Counted from the stretch's first letter, positions 3,578 through 28,273 are shown. The stretch is DNA of 28,273 nt from a virus (IMGVR_UViG_3300050821_010409:94160-122432), one strand, 5' to 3'. Program-made: numbers and translations. Notes: generated from the letters alone by a model not told the origin.

Positions 3578-3608
3578 GGGGTGCTTGCTCTTTCCTTTTT
3601 TCGTTCAG

Positions 3609-3664
3609 GCTGAGTGCCTGCGGCCACGAACGGGAATGCCCGCTCGTGACCGCCAGTGCTCAGC
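3609..3664 (-). repeat. Type 1 intergenic hairpin, copy 2
   Basis: It has GCTGAG/CTCAGC outer arms, the conserved CTGGCGGTC and GGCCGCAG arms, and an inner stem CACGAGCGGG/CCCGTTCGTG. The element is followed on the minus strand by the A/G-rich binding site of the gene at 3302-3577. Confidence 0.85.
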
Positions 3665-3676
3665 AGGGCGCACTGG

Positions 3677-6977: not shown

Positions 6978-7014
6978 GGCGGTCTTCCTTTTCGTGGTGC
7001 CGTGTCATTCCAGG

Positions 7015-7068
7015 CTGGGCGCCTGCGGCCACGAACGGGAGTGCCCGCTCGTGACCGCCAGTGCCCAG
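7015..7068 (-). repeat. Type 1 intergenic hairpin, copy 3
   Basis: It has CTGGGC/GCCCAG outer arms, the conserved CTGGCGGTC and GGCCGCAG arms, and the inner stem CACGAGCGGG/CCCGTTCGTG. The GGGC/GCCC pair replaces the GAG/CTC pair of copies 1 and 2, a compensatory change. Confidence 0.85.
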
Positions 7069-7076
7069 GAGGCGGG

Positions 7077-8375: not shown

Positions 8376-8403
8376 GACGTTTTTCCCTTTCTTCTCTTTC
8401 AGG

Positions 8404-8457
8404 CTGGGCGCCTGCGGCCACGGGCGGGAAAGCCCGCCCGCGACCGCCAGTGCTCAG
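8404..8457 (-). repeat. Type 1 intergenic hairpin, copy 4
   Basis: It carries the conserved CTGGCGGTC and GGCCGCAG arms and the inner stem GCGGGCGGG/CCCGCCCGT. The TGA stop of the gene at 8454-9482 is inside the 5' arm. Confidence 0.85.
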
Positions 8458-9569: not shown

Positions 9570-10936
9570 CTGCTGACCGCGCTCAGCATGGTGGCCAGGG
9601 CCGCGGTCCGGGGGCCGAGCCGGAACATCGCCACGCTGCTGGCGTCTTCTGCCGCGAGGCCCGCGGCGCGCTCGGCGTCGGTGAACCCGATGCCGGCGGC
9701 AGGCCCGATCCGGTAGGACTCGATGGGTGATGCTTGCGCTGCCAGCACCGGGCCATTACTGCTGCTGCGCCCGCGCCCGCGCCGGGGGCCATAGCTGAGC
9801 GAGTCGGTCAGCGCGGGCAGCATGTAGCCTGTGCACTGGATGGCCAGGTCGTAGGTGCGGTCATTGACCAGCACGCCACCGGGCACCGGCACCGGGTAGC
9901 CGGACTGCCCGGCCAGCCGCAGCCGGGTGCTCGGGCTGCTGGCGTTGCCTTCCAGGTACTGGGCCAGCCGCAGGTACCGGCCGCGCTTGCCCTCCCGGAA
10001 TTCGGAGCACGTCAGGCCGCTCAGGGCCGGCGCGTAGACGTCCACGCGCTGCACGCAGTCCAGTCCGATGGTGGAGGTGTGGCCAGGGGCGAGGCCCAGC
10101 AGGGACTCGGCAGCGCACAGCCCGCTGTTGCCGCCGCCGATGATCGCCACCTGAGCCAGCCCGCGCAGCGGGAACGGGGTGCCCATCCGGGCCATGAACT
10201 GCGGGAAGCTCAGTATCCGCTCGCCGTCGCCCTTGCTGGCCGGGTTGCCCAGGCCGCGCGCGTCCAGCACCCGGGCGCAGGAGAGGGTGCCTTCATTGGT
10301 GGCCAGCGTTATGGACTTGCCGCTGGGGCTGCTGACCCTGCCGCTGATGCTGGTGACGGTGACGCCCGGGGTCACGTCCGCGAATTGCGCCAGCAGCAGC
10401 CGGACCAGCCAGGCCACCAGGGCGTTGTCCGCGTACTCCTGTGAGGTGAGCATGGCCAGCGGCGGGAAGCCCGTCCCGGCCGGGAAGAAGTTCAGCCCCT
10501 TGTCCTGGTCAGGCAGCCCGGACGGGCCGGGCCGGTTGCGGGAGTTCAGCCAGAACACGGGCTGCATGCTCATCGCGAAGGCGCCCCCGACGCTCTCTGG
10601 CTCATTGCGCTCCAGGACGACGGGCTTGGGGAAGCCGGCCATGACGCGGCTGGCTGCGTAGACGGCCGCGTGGTAGCCGCCGCCGATGATGACCTCCCGG
10701 CCAGCCAGGTTCGTGAAGGCAGCTGCTGGCGGGCGCGACCAGTACTGCGTGAGCGCTGCCGTCATCAGCTGGCGCGCTTCGGGGACCATGGCGATCCCGG
10801 CCAGCTGCATTTCCGTCATGCTGGCGAAGTCGGCGGCGCGGGACGCGCACAGGGTGATCCCCTCCGACAGCCGCTTCTTGTCCAGGCACTGCTCGATCAC
10901 GTCCCGGATGACCGGGGCCAGTTCAGGCTCTGCCAT
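9566..10936 (-). CDS. FAD/NAD(P)-binding flavoprotein oxidoreductase
   Basis: The 456-residue product has two dinucleotide-binding motifs: GGGYHA at residues 85-90 (strand VIIGGG, then acidic VVLERN at about 106-111, for FAD) and GGGNSG at 267-272 (strand VAIIGGG, for NAD(P)H). It also has a QCTGY segment at 367-371, like the ATG motif of flavin monooxygenases and thioredoxin-reductase-like enzymes. A GIGFTD segment near 415 fits the closing FAD contact. The N-terminal 70 residues are helical and unassigned. The substrate is unknown. Such a complete two-Rossmann enzyme is unusual among small phage orphans. A type 2 hairpin lies just upstream, and its own A/G-rich binding site precedes the ATG at 10936. 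Confidence 0.8.
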   Translation of the reverse strand: MAEPELAPVIRDVIEQCLDKKRLSEGITLCASRAADFASMTEMQLAGIAMVPEARQLMTAALTQYWSRPPAAAFTNLAGREVIIGGGYHAAVYAASRVMAGFPKPVVLERNEPESVGGAFAMSMQPVFWLNSRNRPGPSGLPDQDKGLNFFPAGTGFPPLAMLTSQEYADNALVAWLVRLLLAQFADVTPGVTVTSISGRVSSPSGKSITLATNEGTLSCARVLDARGLGNPASKGDGERILSFPQFMARMGTPFPLRGLAQVAIIGGGNSGLCAAESLLGLAPGHTSTIGLDCVQRVDVYAPALSGLTCSEFREGKRGRYLRLAQYLEGNASSPSTRLRLAGQSGYPVPVPGGVLVNDRTYDLAIQCTGYMLPALTDSLSYGPRRGRGRSSSNGPVLAAQASPIESYRIGPAAGIGFTDAERAAGLAAEDASSVAMFRLGPRTAALATMLSAVSS

Positions 10937-13949: not shown

Positions 13950-13983
13950 GGCAGCCTCCTTTCTTGCTCGATGTCAGTCCAGG

Positions 13984-14038
13984 CTGAGCGCCTGCGGCCG
14001 TGGGCGGGGAGTGCCCGTCCGCGACCGCCAGTACCCAG
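13984..14038 (-). repeat. Type 1 intergenic hairpin, copy 7
   Basis: The outer arms CTGGGT and GCTCAG pair with G-U wobbles. The conserved CTGGCGGTC and GGCCGCAG arms surround an inner stem of the CGGACGGG/CCCGCCC type. It is followed on the minus strand by the AAGAAAGGAGG binding site of the gene at 13095-13949. Confidence 0.85.
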
Positions 14039-14061
14039 TATCACCGAGTATGCAGGGTGCC

Positions 14062-15348
14062 TTATGCGGCCTGCTCGCCAGCGGGCCACGCAGCATGCTG
14101 GCTGACGCTCAGCTCCAGCGGCCGGCCGTCGTAGCGCGCCGTGAGCTCTTCGGGCGCGATGAGGTAGCTGCCTCCGGGGTTCACGTACATCGGGTCGCAG
14201 CTGAACGCGATCTTGCGGTAGGTCCAGCCCGCCAGGTGGGCCATGACCCGGGGCGCCGCGTAGCCTTCCAGCTCGCCGTACCCGTTGAACACGACGAAGG
14301 CGCTTGGTGCCAGGGTCTCGAATGTCGGCACCAGCTTTCCTGGCGCGTTGTACTGCAGGGGCAGTACCCAGGCGCGCCCGCTGACGTCTCCGTAGGAGCC
14401 GAACGTCAGCAGCCCGAAGCCGCCGTTGGTCTTCAGTGCGCAGCGGCTGTCCCGGTAGCTCGTCCACCAGCAGGATCCCTCATGGTAAAAGTCCCCGGGC
14501 GGCCGGTTCAGGTCCCGCGTGACGATGATCGTGACGTCCACGGGGTTGCTGTGGTCGCGGGCGATGCTGCCGATGCCCGACAAGTCGGCGGGCGCGAGCT
14601 TGAGGCTGTATTTCTTGTAGGCGAGGCTGCTCAGCCGCTTGGTGAAGTTTCCGGTCCTGGCCTGCCACTGGTTACCCAGCTCGTCCAGGGACCAGGCTAG
14701 TTCGCAGAGGAGGGCGCTTTCCTGCGCGCGCGCCTTGGCCATCAGGTAAGCCTGGATCTCCTTCAGCCCTTCGGGTGAGATGGCGCCCGCCGCCAGCGTG
14801 ATCGTGGCCTGCACGTCATTCGCCAGCAGTGCGCAGCCGTTATTGCGGAGGGTGAACGCGGGTTGCGGTGAGGAGCAGCAGGAGCCATCGTCCTCGTCCT
14901 CGTCCTCGTCCTCGTGGTCATGGTTGGCTTGGTCATTGTCGTGGTAGTGCCCCTCGCAGGGCTCGCAGTAGCTGTAGTCAGCGGCAAGGCACTGATCACA
15001 GACGTCCTCGGCGTCCAGCGTCCGGGTGAAGTGACCGCGGCTGACCGGGTACCGGTCGTCACAGAGGGAGCACGCTCCCCAGGAATCCCGGCACGAGTCG
15101 CAGACGTGCACGCTGGCGTAGGTGCGCACGGAGGTGAGCGCGTGTTCCCAGGCGGGAATGCCGCAGCCGTCACAGAAATCGACGTCATCGATGGCGGTGG
15201 GCTCGCTGGTGATCGTCTCCAGGTACTGGCGGAACTGGGCATTGCGGCTGCCCAGGAACGGGTCGTGCGTGAACCCGGTCCACAGCCCTTCTAGGTCCAG
15301 GTCGCCTGCAGCGACCTTGGGGACGGGGTCTTGCGCTTCTTGCGTCAT
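14062..15348 (-). CDS. Cys-rich zinc-ribbon protein, paralogous family member A
   Basis: The 428-residue product has an N-terminal region (about 59-133) with at least five CxxC or CxC-type pairs (FCDGC, VCDSC, CSLC, VCDQC, YCEPC) able to bind two or three zinc ions. A His/Asp/Glu stretch follows at 138-154, then a core of about 270 residues. The core carries GSIARDHSNPVDV, SCWW, SRCALKTNGGFGL, SGRAWV, FNGYGELEGYAAPRV, MAHLAGWTYRKI and FSCDPMYVN, all kept in its paralogues at 16487 and 17812. The ATG at 15348 is chosen over a frame running into a type 2 hairpin. I do not recognise the core family. Confidence 0.75.
   Translation of the reverse strand: MTQEAQDPVPKVAAGDLDLEGLWTGFTHDPFLGSRNAQFRQYLETITSEPTAIDDVDFCDGCGIPAWEHALTSVRTYASVHVCDSCRDSWGACSLCDDRYPVSRGHFTRTLDAEDVCDQCLAADYSYCEPCEGHYHDNDQANHDHEDEDEDEDDGSCCSSPQPAFTLRNNGCALLANDVQATITLAAGAISPEGLKEIQAYLMAKARAQESALLCELAWSLDELGNQWQARTGNFTKRLSSLAYKKYSLKLAPADLSGIGSIARDHSNPVDVTIIVTRDLNRPPGDFYHEGSCWWTSYRDSRCALKTNGGFGLLTFGSYGDVSGRAWVLPLQYNAPGKLVPTFETLAPSAFVVFNGYGELEGYAAPRVMAHLAGWTYRKIAFSCDPMYVNPGGSYLIAPEELTARYDGRPLELSVSQHAAWPAGEQAA
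14891..14914. repeat. 6-bp microsatellite encoding an Asp/Glu run
   Basis: Four units of TCCTCG (plus strand) encode alternating Glu and Asp between the zinc region and core of the gene at 14062-15348. Copy number could change the linker length without shifting frame. Confidence 0.8.
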
Positions 15349-22102: not shown

Positions 22103-22136
22103 GGGTGACTTCCTTTTCCTGGTGGTTTCAGTATTC

Positions 22137-22256
22137 TCAGGACAGCCCGGGGGCGCCGGCGACCAGCCAGAAGAACAGGCCGAGGATGAGCAGCCCGGTG
22201 ATCTTCACCAGCGCCTCGGGCCATCCTGTCCGGTGGGTGCTGTCGTTGTCGTGCAT
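22137..22256 (-). CDS. Single-pass membrane peptide (39 aa)
   Basis: An ATG at 22256 follows GGAGAAAGGAAACGCC, a near-ideal binding site. The product starts MHDNDSTHRTGWPEALVKIT and continues into one hydrophobic segment (about 17-37) with little after it. It is small enough to be missed by annotation pipelines. It might act as a membrane effector or holin-like peptide, but that is speculation. Confidence 0.65.
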   Translation of the reverse strand: MHDNDSTHRTGWPEALVKITGLLILGLFFWLVAGAPGLS

Positions 22257-22280
22257 GGCGTTTCCTTTCTCCTGTGCAGG

Positions 22281-22334
22281 CTGGGTGCCTGCGGCCGTGC
22301 ACGGGAATTGCCCGTGCGCGACCGCCAGTACCCT
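22281..22334 (-). repeat. Type 1 intergenic hairpin, copy 9
   Basis: GGGT/ACCC pairing stands where other copies have GGGC/GCCC. The conserved middle arms are kept, and the inner stem is GCACGGG/CCCGTGC. It lies directly after the stop of the 15-codon ORF. Confidence 0.85.
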
Positions 22335-22336
22335 GG

Positions 22337-22384
22337 CTATTCGTCTTCTTCCTCCTCGCCCTCTTCAGGACCGTATTCCGTCAT
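22337..22384 (-). CDS. Very short acidic ORF (15 aa) with a strong ribosome binding site
   Basis: ATG at 22384 to TAG at 22337-22339 reads MTEYGPEEGEEEEDE. A consensus AGAGGAGGTGGCGACC site lies directly upstream, the best Shine-Dalgarno in the window, so translation is likely if the RNA is made. The TAG is two bases from a type 1 hairpin, like many full genes here. It may be an acidic micropeptide or a coupling/leader ORF. The longer frame upstream to 22702 only shadows the secreted-protein gene. Confidence 0.5.
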   Translation of the reverse strand: MTEYGPEEGEEEEDE

Positions 22385-22434
22385 GGTCGCCACCTCCTCT
22401 CCGTGCGCTGGCTCCAGCAGGCAGGCTGTCACGG

Positions 22435-25411: not shown

Positions 25412-25660
25412 CTAGTGCACGGACAGGCCGCTGCTGGTGCAGGTGGCCGTGTCGCCATCAGGCAGCAGCACGGACTCGCCGGTGCTCAGGTCTACGTCCC
25501 AGGTGCCGACGTTCCGGTTATCGGTGGCGTACACCGGCTGCGTGACCTGGTAGCAGGCTGCAGGGGCAGAGGCGCGCACCAGCATGACCGTCACGATGAC
25601 GGCAGCCAGCACGCTGGCAATGGCGATCAGCATGGCTGCGTTCAGGGAACGGCGCGTCAT
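25412..25660 (-). CDS. Membrane-anchored or secreted small protein (82 aa)
   Basis: The product starts MTRRSLNAAMLIAIASVLAA: an Arg-rich start and one long hydrophobic segment (about 8-28), so either a signal anchor or an uncleaved signal. The outer part carries two cysteines (ACYQV and TCTSS) likely to form a disulfide, and beta-strand patterns (WDVDLSTGESVLL). The ATG overlaps the stop of the basic peptide gene upstream (ATGA). The function is unknown. Confidence 0.75.
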   Translation of the reverse strand: MTRRSLNAAMLIAIASVLAAVIVTVMLVRASAPAACYQVTQPVYATDNRNVGTWDVDLSTGESVLLPDGDTATCTSSGLSVH

Positions 25661-25785
25661 CGCCGGCAGCCCTTGCGGGAGGCGCGCGCCACGCGGCGGG
25701 CGGCACGGCGGCGGCGCGCGCTGGCGGAGCTGAGCTTGGGCGCGCTGCTGTGGTTGGAGCGGCCCTGCGTGAAGGGCTCGGTCAT
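25657..25785 (-). CDS. Very basic small peptide (42 aa)
   Basis: An ATG at 25785 follows GAAAGGACAAGGCC. The product starts MTEPFTQGRSNHSSAPKLSS; the second half is mostly Arg and Ala (SARRRRAARRVARAS), as in small nucleic-acid-binding peptides. Its stop overlaps the next start. The longer frame upstream covers the tRNA-like element and is rejected. It might bind DNA or RNA, but this is inference from charge. Confidence 0.6.
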   Translation of the reverse strand: MTEPFTQGRSNHSSAPKLSSASARRRRAARRVARASRKGCRR

Positions 25786-25830
25786 GGCCTTGTCCTTTCC
25801 CGTGAGCGGGAGCCTTTCTCCCGCTGCCGT

Positions 25831-25893
25831 GGCACGCGAGGGGATTGAACCCTCGTGCGGGCTGTAGCCTGCAAGCCTTGCCTGGCTCGTGCC
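25831..25893 (-). tRNA. Compact tRNA-like element (63 nt), identity unclear
   Basis: On the minus strand a GGCACG/CGTGCC acceptor-like stem and a perfect T-arm (GAGGG, loop TTCAATC, CCCTC) are clear. An AGCC/GGCT pair could be a short D-arm. The rest does not fold into a standard anticodon stem with a 7-base loop; the best stem (TGCAGG with CCCGCA) has a mismatch and a 6-base loop. A TGCA and a CTACAG both occur, so I cannot name an amino acid. The length is 63, well below the usual 73 or more, and no CCA is encoded (the end is GTGCCACGG). It may be a degenerate tRNA or an RNA-processing mimic. Confidence 0.5.
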
Positions 25894-26001
25894 GTTTCCC
25901 TGCATATGCGCGGTCCCTTTGCTACTCTGTCCCGCTTTCCGGTCTTCTCCGCTGCCAGGGCGGACTCTGCCGAGCTTTCATTTTCGCGGGCGTCCGTGCG
26001 T
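25894..26001 (-). other. Spacer between two tRNA-like elements
   Basis: These 108 bp contain no supported gene. A 19-codon frame begins at an ATG near 25980 on the minus strand, but it lacks a clear binding site. I see no convincing -35/-10 promoter. Together with the two tRNA-like elements this makes the longest gene-free stretch (about 270 bp) between ordinary genes. Confidence 0.5.
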
Positions 26002-26047
26002 GGCACCCAGCGGAGTCGAACCGCTGCGCGTGCTTTCCCCCGGTGCC
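26002..26047 (-). tRNA. Minimal tRNA-like element (46 nt) without D- and anticodon arms
   Basis: A GGCACC/GGTGCC acceptor-like stem and a perfect T-arm (AGCGG, loop TTCGACT, CCGCT) are separated on the 5' side by only 15 or so bases (GGGGAAAGCACGCGC). This leaves no room for an anticodon or D-arm. The 5' end is fixed by the stop of the upstream gene about 8 bp away. It is an acceptor/T-arm minihelix like those recognised by tRNA-processing enzymes. It could be a remnant or a deliberate tRNA mimic. Confidence 0.5.
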
Positions 26048-26054
26048 GTTACTG

Positions 26055-26267
26055 CTAGCTTTTCCTGATCCTGATCGTCATGTGCGACCGGGAGAATTCA
26101 TCACTCGGCGCGGCGTAGACGGTCCCGGATTCCTGTGGCCGGTTGCCCTTGACTGCTGATTCCGGGAGCCAGCAGTGCTCTTGTGGCTTAGTGCGGAACA
26201 CGCAGCCGTCTCGCCATTCCGTGACCAGGAATGGCTGCACGTACACCTCGTACTCGCGTTCTGGCAT
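26055..26267 (-). CDS. Small orphan protein (70 aa)
   Basis: The ATG at 26267 shares a base with the TGA of the upstream gene (TGATG). A GTG at 26270 just before it would overlap in a GTGA and add one residue. The product starts MPEREYEVYVQPFLVTEWRD, with beta-strand patterns, HCWLPESAVKG, and a basic end ending RIRKS. A minimal tRNA-like element begins about 8 bp after its stop. The function is unknown. Confidence 0.7.
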   Translation of the reverse strand: MPEREYEVYVQPFLVTEWRDGCVFRTKPQEHCWLPESAVKGNRPQESGTVYAAPSDEFSRSHMTIRIRKS

Positions 26268-26509
26268 CACCGCGTGACTGTCCTGATCTCGGTGGCGTGC
26301 AGGGCGAAGTCGCGCAGCAGGGCACCGTAATCCCAGTAGCAGGACTGGCCGATGGGCAGGTTTTCGCCATCGAATGCTTCGAATGCCATGAAGCGTGCTT
26401 TCTTGAAACAGTAATCACAGCTATGACGCCAGCGGCGCAGGGGATTGGGCTTGGCGTGCTTGCTGCGCTTGATGACCCGTTTCCTGAGCAGGATGATCAG
26501 CAACTTCAT
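26267..26509 (-). CDS. Basic small protein (80 aa) with CxxC
   Basis: The product starts MKLLIILLRKRVIKRSKHAK: a short hydrophobic opening, then Arg/Lys-rich. Later come CDYC and GQSCYWDYG, three cysteines that with His could form a zinc site. The ATG at 26509 overlaps the stop of the upstream gene (ATGA). The opening might be a short amphipathic membrane contact. The upstream extension to 26608 only shadows the neighbouring gene. The function is unknown. Confidence 0.7.
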   Translation of the reverse strand: MKLLIILLRKRVIKRSKHAKPNPLRRWRHSCDYCFKKARFMAFEAFDGENLPIGQSCYWDYGALLRDFALHATEIRTVTR

Positions 26510-26892
26510 GACGTGGCCTGCCCTTCGCGCCGTTCCAGTTCCTGGAATTCCGCGATGGCTTGCGCCCACGCCTGCGGGAACGTGACCTTGATGTAGCCAG
26601 TCAGCCACGCGAGCGCGTGCAGTTCGCTGACCGTGACGTCAGGGCAGCTGGCGATGTGCGGCCTGCTGTGGCACTCGTACAGTCCTGAGAGCGCGTCGTG
26701 CATTCCCCTGCTGAACGCTTCAGGTCCTGGCTGCGCTTGCGCGCCTGCGTACCGGTCAGCGATGGCGTCAAGGTGGCGCCAGTTACCCTGGCTGATGATG
26801 CACTCGACGGTGCGGGCTTTCTCGTCATCGGTGCCCGTCCAGGCATAGCACAGCAGCCAGCGCCGGACGACATCTTCTGAGAGCGTGCTCAT
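26506..26892 (-). CDS. Orphan protein (128 aa), first of a coupled trio
   Basis: The product starts MSTLSEDVVRRWLLCYAWTG, predicted helical. It has four cysteines (CYAW, CII, CHS, CPD), histidines in the middle, a helical domain (VSELHALAWLTGYIKVTF) and a C-terminal helix (AIAEFQELERREG). It has no membrane segment. Its binding site (GAAAGGAGAAAACACC) directly follows a type 3 hairpin region. The three genes 26892 to 26055 overlap in series. The function is unknown. Confidence 0.75.
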   Translation of the reverse strand: MSTLSEDVVRRWLLCYAWTGTDDEKARTVECIISQGNWRHLDAIADRYAGAQAQPGPEAFSRGMHDALSGLYECHSRPHIASCPDVTVSELHALAWLTGYIKVTFPQAWAQAIAEFQELERREGQATS

Positions 26893-26938
26893 GGTGTTTT
26901 CTCCTTTCTCGTGTTCCTTGCGTGCCTTGTTTCCTGCG

Positions 26939-27005
26939 GCGTAAGGTCATGGCCAGCGATTTCCCTGTGCTGTCCTTGGGAGATCACTGGCCATGAGCCG
27001 GCGCT
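26939..27005 (-). repeat. Type 3 intergenic hairpin, copy 3
   Basis: The stem CATGGCCAGTGAT/ATCGCTGGCCATG (with one wobble) and the flanks GCGCCGGCT and CTTACGC match copy 2. The arm change GGCGAGTGA to GGCCAGTGA is matched on the other arm. Confidence 0.85.
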
Positions 27006-27030
27006 GCTGGTCATCGGTGAAGCGGCAGCC

Positions 27031-27558
27031 TCACCACGACTCCTCGGCAACGATTGTCCACGTGAACAGGTAGCGCGGGTCATAGTGCCTGCTGCATTCC
27101 GCGCAGCTCATGGTCTTGGCTGCTCGCGTTAGCCGGTGGCGTCGCAGGACGTGGCCGTTAGGGCAGGTGCCCCGGTACGTGCCCGCGATGGCGAGCTCAT
27201 CATCAAAGCACCGCTCCGGGTTCGCGCCGATCAGCACGCACATGTGCCGCCATTCCTGGTCATGGCCGCCGGTGGTGAGCGCGTGCGCGATCTCGTGCAG
27301 GATGACGTCCTTGATCATGGCGTAGTTTCCGGCACGCTGCCATTTCGTCATGATTGGCGCGCTCAGTCCGATCACCGGGATTTCCCGGCGGCACACGCCG
27401 GCCCGCTGCTTGCTCTCGTCAAACGCCAGCGTCCAGTCGCCGATGTCGTGCACGATCATGAGTGGCTCTGCCATCTCGCGGACGCCGCGTGGTTCTGGCG
27501 TCGTCCCGGTGACGAGGGTCGCTCCCATGCTCGCCAGGAAGTCCGGCATTGCCGCCAT
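27031..27558 (-). CDS. SprT-like zinc metalloprotease
   Basis: The 175-residue product has HEIAH at residues 88-92 followed by GGHDQEWRHMC, the third ligand being His99 or nearby. After a spacer comes a C-terminal zinc ribbon (CPNGH at 132-136, CAEC at 152-155). This order, HExxH protease plus treble ribbon, is that of SprT/Spartan-type domains, which cleave DNA-bound proteins. It is probably intracellular. GAGGTGAATCACG before the ATG at 27558 supports the longest start; Met29 is an alternative. In a phage it could clear DNA-protein crosslinks or host DNA-binding proteins. Confidence 0.85.
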   Translation of the reverse strand: MAAMPDFLASMGATLVTGTTPEPRGVREMAEPLMIVHDIGDWTLAFDESKQRAGVCRREIPVIGLSAPIMTKWQRAGNYAMIKDVILHEIAHALTTGGHDQEWRHMCVLIGANPERCFDDELAIAGTYRGTCPNGHVLRRHRLTRAAKTMSCAECSRHYDPRYLFTWTIVAEESW

Positions 27559-27603
27559 CGTGATTCACCTCATTTCCTTGGTTCCTGCGTTGCCAGTACC
27601 GGG

Positions 27604-27661
27604 CTGAGTGCCCGTGGCCGCACGCGGGAGCGTTTTCCCGCGCGCGACCATGGATGCTCAG
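27604..27661 (-). repeat. Type 1 intergenic hairpin, copy 10 (variant)
   Basis: It has CTGAG/CTCAG outer arms but a diverged middle (CCATGGTCGC with GCGGCCACGG) and a GCGCGGGAAAACGCTCCCGC inner stem. The TGA of the gene at 27658-27807 is inside the 5' arm. Confidence 0.75.
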
Positions 27662-27807
27662 ATGTACTCGGCAACCCAGCCGTCAGGCAGGGCCGCTTCA
27701 AGCTCGTCAAGCTGCGCGTCTGTCAGCAGGATTGCCTCGCCCTGCTGTGTCCCGTTATCGTCCAGGACCTTGACCTGGTAGGTGGTCTCGCCCGTTTCGG
27801 CGTTCAT
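27658..27807 (-). CDS. Small protein (49 aa)
   Basis: An ATG at 27807 follows AGAAAGGAAAACTGTC. The product starts MNAETGETTYQVKVLDDNGT, with two beta strands then a Glu-rich helix (LTDAQLDELEAALPDGW) and an end AEYI. The pattern VxVLDDxGxxxGEAILLTDAQL is of a kind seen in phage orphans. It is too short for usual filters. The function is unknown. Confidence 0.7.
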   Translation of the reverse strand: MNAETGETTYQVKVLDDNGTQQGEAILLTDAQLDELEAALPDGWVAEYI

Positions 27808-27836
27808 GACAGTTTTCCTTTCTCGTCACCGGTGGC

Positions 27837-27986
27837 TTACGACAACGGCCTCAGGTCACTGCTGAAGTAGTTGCCGGTACTGCCGTCTGACCATTCCACG
27901 GCGTAGAGCCCGTTGGGGTGCTGGCGGCGGATGACGCCATAGGCCCATGGGGATTTCCGGTGCGTGACGATCTGCGCGATGCTCAT
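27837..27986 (-). CDS. Small SH3-like phage-type protein (49 aa)
   Basis: An ATG at 27986 follows AAGAAAGGAAAGGACTGTC. The product starts MSIAQIVTHRKSPWAYGVIR and continues RRQHPNGLYAVEWSDGSTGNYFSSDLRPL, a small beta-barrel pattern (G/V-x-W-x-D-G, then D-L) common in phage orphans and reminiscent of Tudor/KOW-like folds. The overlapping frame to 28068 reads through the hairpin and is a shadow. The function is unknown. Confidence 0.7.
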   Translation of the reverse strand: MSIAQIVTHRKSPWAYGVIRRQHPNGLYAVEWSDGSTGNYFSSDLRPLS

Positions 27987-28014
27987 GACAGTCCTTTCCT
28001 TTCTTGGATTCCTG

Positions 28015-28072
28015 TTGAATCCTCGCAGCCACGGACAGGAAGAATCGCCTGCCTGTGACTGCCAGCATTCAA
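28015..28072 (-). repeat. Type 1 intergenic hairpin, copy 11 (variant)
   Basis: The outer stem has become TTGAAT/ATTCAA, fully replaced on both arms relative to other copies. The middle CTGGCAGTC and GGCTGCGAG and a CAGGCAGG/CCTGTC inner stem keep the layout. This is the clearest covarying copy. Confidence 0.8.
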
Positions 28073-28080
28073 GCTGGACG

Positions 28081-28226
28081 GCTTTCTCTTTTCAGCCGTT
28101 CGGGTCAAGTCCGGAGTGGTTACCGTTTGCCCGGTGCTGACGTCGGCTATGATGGCAGCTCGTTCATCTACGTCAGCACCCTTGTGCTCATTTCTCGTGG
28201 CTTTCCGGAGTCATTTTCCGGTAGTT
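28081..28226 (-). promoter_or_regulatory. Gene-poor leader with an 11-bp hairpin and three mini-ORFs
   Basis: No ordinary gene is visible. A perfect GGTGCTGACGT/ACGTCAGCACC stem (28133-28143 with 28170-28180) has a 26-base loop with a possible inner GATG/CATC pair. On the minus strand three mini-ORFs (8, 7 and 6 codons) run in series from 28214 to 28147, linked by ATGA and TAGATG contacts. It lies just downstream of the terminal tRNA-like element. A leader/attenuator role is speculation; I see no clear sigma70 promoter. Confidence 0.4.
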
Positions 28227-28235
28227 CCCTCGCGT

Positions 28236-28273
28236 GGCACCGGGCGGAATTGAACCGCCCCCCCCCCCCCCCC
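28236..28273 (-). tRNA. 3' part of a third tRNA-like element, cut off by the window end
   Basis: Minus-strand GGCGG, loop TTCAATT, CCGCC (T-arm) is followed by CGGTGCC and A, the same 3' end layout as the other two elements (GTGCCACGC). The 5' part is missing because the window runs into a poly-C tract. Whether this one is a full tRNA cannot be seen. Confidence 0.5.

Follow-up and report, generated by a model that had tools for sequence, protein, structure and literature searches.

What is the role of three transfer RNA (tRNA)-like elements, E1, E2 and E3, which lie between genes at one end of a virus genome and of which one is only 46 nucleotides (nt) long? The window considered here, a stretch of 28,273 nt, forms the right-hand end (positions 94160-122432) of an IMG/VR virus record of 122,432 bases, and all three elements lie on its minus strand, the same strand as the genes. 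From their structure, their similarity to elements of other phages and their position, we identified E1-E3 as diverged members of an unannotated class of acceptor/T-arm minihelices located between cistrons. We further favour, with somewhat better than even confidence, the reading that this class consists of tRNA top-half elements placed between genes, by which host enzymes would divide polycistronic messenger RNA (mRNA). Their components, in window positions, are as follows:

25830..25893, minus strand: E1, tRNA-like element with its discriminator A (63 nt without the discriminator, 25831-25893)
25888-25893 with 25831-25836, minus strand: E1 acceptor of 6 base pairs (bp), GGCACG...CGTGCC, followed by A(25830)CGG
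25874-25887, minus strand: E1 D-like arm, AGCC-AGGCAA-GGCT, in the minimum-energy fold
25856-25873, minus strand: E1 poor anticodon-like arm, loop CTACAG, with one A.C mismatch, in the minimum-energy fold
25837-25855, minus strand: E1 6-bp T-stem CGAGGG/CCCTCG with loop TTCAATC
26001..26047, minus strand: E2, bare minihelix with its discriminator A (46 nt without the discriminator, 26002-26047)
26042-26047 with 26002-26007, minus strand: E2 6-bp acceptor, GGCACC...GGTGCC, followed by A(26001)CGC
26027-26041, minus strand: E2 linker of 15 nt containing GGGGG, the whole of the sequence between acceptor and T-stem
26008-26026, minus strand: E2 6-bp T-stem CAGCGG/CCGCTG with loop TTCGACT
28235..28273, minus strand: E3, truncated by the record end, with T-arm loop TTCAATT and 3' acceptor strand GGTGCC+A, then CGC

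A complete T-arm and an acceptor end GTGCC followed by A-CG(G/C) are common to all three elements, as the preliminary description of this locus had reported. E1 and E2 each combine 6 acceptor with 6 T-stem pairs (12 bp), as opposed to the 7+5 arrangement typical of tRNAs, and E3 shows the T-arm side of the 6+6 bp arrangement (T-arm and GGTGCC+ACGC at 28235-28260), with its 5' half beyond the record end. The last 16 bases of the record (28258-28273), within E3, form a run of 16 C that is probably an assembly artefact. A 23-G run in another assembly (G001 106791-106813) is likewise near a contig end, and both runs are likely sequencing artefacts that broke the assembly. The earlier claim that E2 is too short to hold D- and anticodon arms holds, making it a truly bare minihelix with a 15-nt linker; the corresponding claim that E1 lacks a normal anticodon arm stands in that this arm is poor, although the middle of E1 is not empty and folds into D-like and anticodon-like arms.

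Such structures are rarely expected by chance. A strict acceptor plus T-arm scan returned five matches in the 122-kb record compared to 0.075 per Markov-generated genome, and a 6+6-bp scan returned four matches with an acceptor, each ending in ACG, compared to 0.05 expected per 122-kb record. A canonical tRNA was rejected as an explanation, given that neither ARAGORN nor the Rfam model RF00005 matched at E1-E3 and that the E2 linker comprises only 15 nt. ARAGORN had been proposed beforehand as a check, and it places no full-length tRNA at the three sites; together with Rfam it returns nothing there, though the same tools give about 29 tRNAs elsewhere in the phage. These ordinary tRNA genes are carried by two other assemblies of the same phage (99.99% identity), which add 52 kb on the left and do not cover E1-E3. 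The source is thus an actinophage-like virus rich in tRNAs, and E1-E3 are separate from these. Transfer-messenger RNA was also rejected, as ARAGORN finds none in the window or the other assembly, and a bacterial Y RNA (YrlA) was considered without finding Rfam support. No close relative covering this genome end was found: a BLASTN search of phage and plasmid records with the region gave no match, related loci sought through the SprT-like protein and the polymerase gave none, an exact 26-mer around E3 matched no other contig, and near the SprT gene of Streptomyces phage Muntaha one tRNA is annotated and nothing resembles E1-E3.

IMG/VR was scanned with patterns describing short acceptor/T-arm units whose acceptor is GGCAC or GGGCA, yielding many elements of 41-69 nt without an ARAGORN tRNA. 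Raw locus counts from these scans are uninformative, since the complementary pattern gave 22 loci and a control with a scrambled 5' strand gave 23; only extended pairing and T-stems separate the two, with a 7-bp acceptor plus perfect T-stem outside ARAGORN tRNAs in 7 of 18 unique complementary matches and in none of 17 scrambled ones. T-arm plus GTGCC alone was discarded as a search pattern because it is too general, recovering mostly real tRNAs and some fragments resembling attachment sites. Fragments consisting of a T-arm and a 3' acceptor are common at the attachment sites of temperate phages, and some T-arm plus GTGCC matches (e.g. loci L039, L058 and L127) look like them, raising the question of whether E1-E3 could be copies of host tRNA gene 3' ends used for integration. 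We consider this hardly probable at all: E1 and E2 possess a matching 5' acceptor strand, the three elements all differ, and for neither E1 nor E2 did the 3' sequence (24-25 nt) have an exact match (variants were not searched) among 84,980 bacterial and archaeal genomes.

One pattern-scan locus belonged to mycobacteriophage Konstantine, from which BLAST reached Predator and Streptomyces phage Endor1, the shared part being the minihelix itself. In the resulting class, acceptor and T-stem, each of 5-6 bp, stack into a helix of 11-12 bp; the loop is TTCRANN, A-C follows the helix, and the short linker between acceptor and T-stem usually contains GG. Both stems covary. In an alignment of six members of 43-44 nt (A2), 97% of cells are paired and 8 of 12 pairs have changed on both sides; this alignment was not fitted to a model, and the selection pattern fixes part of the stems in two of its six sources. 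In a second alignment of 36 distinct members (A4), 94% of cells are paired and 11 of 12 pairs covary, values biased towards the structure of the first model, to which the alignment was fitted; none of 500 shuffles reached its observed score, and slid controls all scored far lower. Members occur in unrelated phages, including both high-GC actinophages and phages of 32-35% GC, and whole-record searches (E<=0.1) gave 9 model matches in Endor1 and 8 each in Konstantine and Predator, which in each phage lie on one strand within 5-6 kb. Linker types vary between copies within one genome. A Predator copy that dispenses with the linker, forming one continuous 12-bp hairpin under a T-loop, suggests that helix length and T-loop together are the recognised feature. 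The class is unannotated, even in well-studied mycobacteriophages, and undescribed in the literature checked (open-access PMC).

Membership of E1-E3 was examined with a covariance model, R2, built without any of the three. Searching the last 5.4 kb of the record with filters off, they constitute its top three matches (E2, 21.2 bits, E=6e-4; E1, 19.9 bits; E3, partial, 13.2 bits), followed by a match of 8.7 bits. Under default filters over the whole record (E<=0.1), R2 listed only E1 of the three, and the earlier model R1 gave poor scores for all three under default filters. E1 has a longer, structured middle in place of the core linker, and its extra arms make it intermediate between a bare minihelix and the larger relatives found in this phage (cluster A) and in L5/D29-type phages, discussed below.

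The position of the class relative to genes is also conserved: members occupy intergenic gaps in the sense orientation, most often shortly past a stop codon and as a rule some 30-49 nt ahead of the next start codon, with distances resting on automatic or deposited gene calls. In Endor1 the element starts 6-15 nt past the stop codon in seven of eight measurable cases and ends 30-49 nt before the next start. Most elements of Predator and Konstantine end 42-48 nt ahead of an ATG and are followed almost directly on their 3' side by a hairpin, significant in all 10 cases tested; in one Predator case, element and annotated gene start overlap. Several AT-rich (32-35% GC) phages place the element 10-45 nt past the stop and 15-22 nt before the start, with no hairpin. 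Of the three elements studied here, E1 has a significant downstream hairpin (p=0.008), whereas those of E2 and E3 fall short of significance; AT-rich members have none. The genes and hairpins surrounding E1-E3 are listed below:

25657..25785, minus strand: gene downstream of E1, 42 amino acids, MTEPFTQG..., whose ATG is 44 nt past the E1 discriminator base
25805..25825, minus strand: 8-bp hairpin AGCGGGAG-AAAGG-CTCCCGCT, directly 3' of the E1 ACGGC, p=0.008 compared to shuffles
25922..25981, minus strand: possible open reading frame (ORF) of 19 amino acids (MKARQSPPWQRRRPESGTE) between E2 and E1, putative, from sequence
26055..26270, minus strand: gene upstream of E2, a 71-amino-acid ORF whose TAG is 7 nt ahead of the E2 start
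28205..28221, minus strand: 5-bp hairpin CCGGA...TCCGG downstream of E3, p=0.056 compared to shuffles

The class layout of a sense element after a stop and before a start therefore recurs here, with E2 7 nt after a TAG and E1 44 nt before an ATG. This ATG is preceded by a Shine-Dalgarno-like stretch, GGGAAAGGAC, and an earlier in-frame ATG (25905) would have the 42-residue gene translated across E1. The putative 19-residue ORF begins 19 nt past the E2 discriminator base. Neither the 42-residue gene after E1 nor the 71-residue ORF before E2 has a match in Pfam. As regards the earlier suggestion that the elements are processing signals and not translating tRNAs, the covarying family, its single repeated intergenic position, its occurrence in unrelated phages and the rank of E1-E3 as best R2 matches speak clearly in its favour, whereas the cleavage that it entails is something we infer.

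These observations also bear on the possibility that E1-E3 are decaying tRNA genes, in which internal deletions spared only the T-arm and acceptor. Such a history would suit a phage with a large tRNA array, about 29 tRNA genes being present elsewhere in the same genome, and D- and anticodon-like arms are still discernible in E1. We nevertheless judge it improbable, as the same compact form with covarying stems recurs in phages having no ARAGORN tRNA in the element regions, the elements keep a regular spacing from stop and start codons, and E1-E3 rank top in an independent covariance model; stems, the A-C and an intercistronic position would not be expected to survive decay.

What tRNA-maturation enzymes read is a helix of 11-12 bp that bears a T-loop cap and has A-C after it, and the layout of the class appears to be that of tRNA punctuation. 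We therefore propose that the minihelix may be transcribed within a polycistronic mRNA and taken by the host enzymes of tRNA maturation, with RNase P cutting ahead of the acceptor; the cut past the discriminator A would be made by tRNase Z or a different 3' nuclease. Excision between stop and start codons would split the polycistronic message into single-gene mRNAs. In GC-rich phages, the downstream mRNA would then carry the hairpin almost at its new 5' end, possibly as protection; the 8-bp hairpin after E1 would come to sit near such an end if E1 were excised. The GG of the linker could in addition dock on the T-loop, as G18-G19 of the D-loop do in tRNAs.

Placement between stop and start, as well as a conserved linker motif, would also fit a regulator site, and linker types that differ between copies in one genome could be read the same way. 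Under this alternative the elements would remain uncut and act as protein-binding sites, or as elements of transcription (antitermination) or translation. We regard it as rather unlikely, given that the constant parts of the class (11-12 bp, T-loop and A-C) are those that tRNA-maturation enzymes read, that the continuous 12-bp T-loop hairpin of Predator does without the linker motif, and that no candidate protein was identified.

In L5/D29-type phages, the right-end transcript carries at its 3' end a larger relative of the minihelix, a tRNA-like structure. Alignment of 14 phages shows a 6-bp acceptor, a covarying 5-bp T-stem and the A-C, and RNAalifold predicts a four-arm cloverleaf of about 92-111 nt. 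Its 3' end lies ~522 nt from the predicted start site in D29 and ~538 nt in SWU1, in approximate agreement, with start sites that are promoter guesses and L5 compared from reported positions, with the abundant L5 RNA running from 51,672 to 51,140-51,190, i.e. 482-532 nt (PMC5712189). The right-end RNA is reported to be the most abundant phage transcript, to be stable, and to be processed from ~500 to 100-400 nt. Its region is described as toxic and as apparently needed for lytic growth, and phages deleted for the left part of the region resisted purification (PMC5712189). Its function was still called unknown in 2024 (PMC10986025), and its tRNA-like nature is mentioned neither in PMC5712189 nor in the further open-access PMC papers checked. 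E1-E3 lie between genes and are without the D-like arm sequence conserved in the L5/D29 right-end RNA alignment; they are accordingly not the Cluster A right-end non-coding RNA, with which they have only the same kind of end structure in common. Opinion among us is evenly balanced on the broader proposition that natural minihelices are widespread unrecognised phage 'commas' passing polycistronic mRNA to the host enzymes of tRNA maturation, the same module ending, as a cloverleaf, the L5/D29 right-end RNA.

Within the phage studied here, the acceptor/T-arm scan revealed a second group of larger relatives:

record G000 14290-15030, minus strand: cluster A, non-coding, three tandem units (A1-A3) of ~190 nt

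Each of these units comprises acceptor strands of GGGCAG/CTGCCC type, a T-arm, ACG and two long hairpins, whose stems are kept and whose tips vary freely between units. Also, the cluster A stretches ATAACTGAAT and GGAGAACAA are common to the D29 right-end RNA. Variable hairpin tips in this cluster, and a cloverleaf relative belonging to the most abundant, stable RNA of L5/D29-type infection (PMC5712189), are what might be expected if the elements were released as stable small RNAs serving as decoys or sponges for tRNA-directed host defences or tRNA-modifying enzymes. This alternative appears very improbable to us, as bare minihelices have no anticodon arm and single copies are spread in sense over gene gaps, an arrangement needless for a sponge; the suggestions in the preliminary description of decoys and of modification-enzyme substrates gained no specific support.

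A number of observations weigh against division of messages at the minihelices or against E1-E3 belonging to the class. In isolation, E2 has a minimum-energy fold of -22.5 kcal/mol compared to -19.5 kcal/mol for the T-arm fold. E1 and E2 score 20-21 bits where core members score 50-66, indicating that they are diverged, and the E2 linker GGGGGAAAGCACGCG shares only its G run with the linker core ATGGTCGNAG/TGGCAGA. This core (ATGGTCG/TGGCAGA) is frequent and not universal, with no such core in E2; other class members are also without it, including the Predator copy lacking any linker. The downstream hairpins of E2 and E3 are not significant singly (p=0.09 and 0.06, respectively). For the larger relative, the smaller L5 RNAs share their 5' end and their authors favour termination at 51,140-51,190 (PMC5712189), so that they do not demonstrate cleavage at the tRNA-like part. 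We found no transcript or cleavage data on the bare minihelices of Endor1, Konstantine and Predator, and RNase P and tRNase Z are put forward here from knowledge of their substrates.

Several known systems resemble the proposed division of messages. In mitochondrial tRNA punctuation and at the t-elements of plant mitochondria, intergenic tRNAs or tRNA-like structures are cut by RNase P and RNase Z, freeing mRNAs. The likeness lies in tRNA-like structures between genes of a polycistronic RNA; the phage elements differ in being short, without decoding arms and often accompanied by a hairpin with which the downstream message opens, and in that their cleavage is predicted. RNase P also cuts phage RNAs, namely the C4 antisense RNA of P1/P7, the CI RNA of P4 and the M3 RNA of phi80, and cuts between genes of Escherichia coli operons. 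These cases show that host RNase P can act on phage RNAs resembling tRNAs, or between cistrons, but are single loci, whereas the minihelix recurs, with covariation, in many gene gaps of several phages. The acceptor-TPsiC minihelix, a biochemical model substrate that is usually a laboratory construct, likewise has a 12-bp helix with a T-loop cap, in contrast to which the phage elements are naturally encoded and kept by covariation. The right-end RNA of L5, D29, StarStuff, Kampy and SWU1 (PMC5712189) resembles the minihelices in its 3' tRNA-like end with 6-bp acceptor, T-stem and A-C, and differs from them as a four-arm cloverleaf in a non-coding transcript. If the proposal is correct, tRNA punctuation would have evolved in phages independently of mitochondria, by means of very small natural tRNA mimics; it would also give the L5/D29 right-end RNA an interpretation open to test, provide a small processing tag, and account for the unexplained 80-120 nt gaps in actinophage operons. 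Konstantine, Predator, Endor1 and D29 are all available as isolates growing on laboratory hosts.

Further features were noted in the course of the analysis. Several genes of the window are preceded by another repeated intergenic element, CACTGGCGGTC...hairpin...GGCCGCAGGC, also on the minus strand (e.g. in gaps 3578-3676, 6978-7076, 8376-8453, 13950-14061 and 22103-22434) and possibly a further kind of punctuation. The window also includes a gene for a SprT-like metalloprotease (27031-27558, minus strand), a kind common in actinophages. Elsewhere in the record (G000), a compact Cas12f/TnpB-like effector is encoded at 75401-76987 on the plus strand (PADLOC Cas12f, E=2e-20; Pfam Cas12f1-like TNB), followed at about 77120-78680 by a CRISPR-like array of at least 20 repeat copies ending in ATGCCTGCGCAGAGGCAAGAGAACTGCGAC with a period of ~72. 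Five single, perfect 30-nt copies of this repeat lie outside the array, at 14146(-), 15364(-), 47474(+), 49464(+) and 53101(-). Two of them flank cluster A, another supplies the first codons of an ORF, and another is internal to an ORF. The ORF at G000 47474-49327 (+) has the appearance of a nuclease-like protein into which an intein has inserted, with a weak LAGLIDADG match. Unusual tRNA-like genes were also observed, including a tRNA-Ile-like gene (G000 10284-10356, plus strand) with A for U33 and CCCGAAA replacing the usual TTCGAAA of the T-loop, and several in the main array that ARAGORN missed (G001 93219-93295, 93449, 96077 and 96210), one with an unusual middle. Finally, a tRNA-like gene with perfect 7+5 stems and a non-canonical middle of 65-66 nt is common to two diverged phage loci, L013 2170(-) and L043 4372(+).

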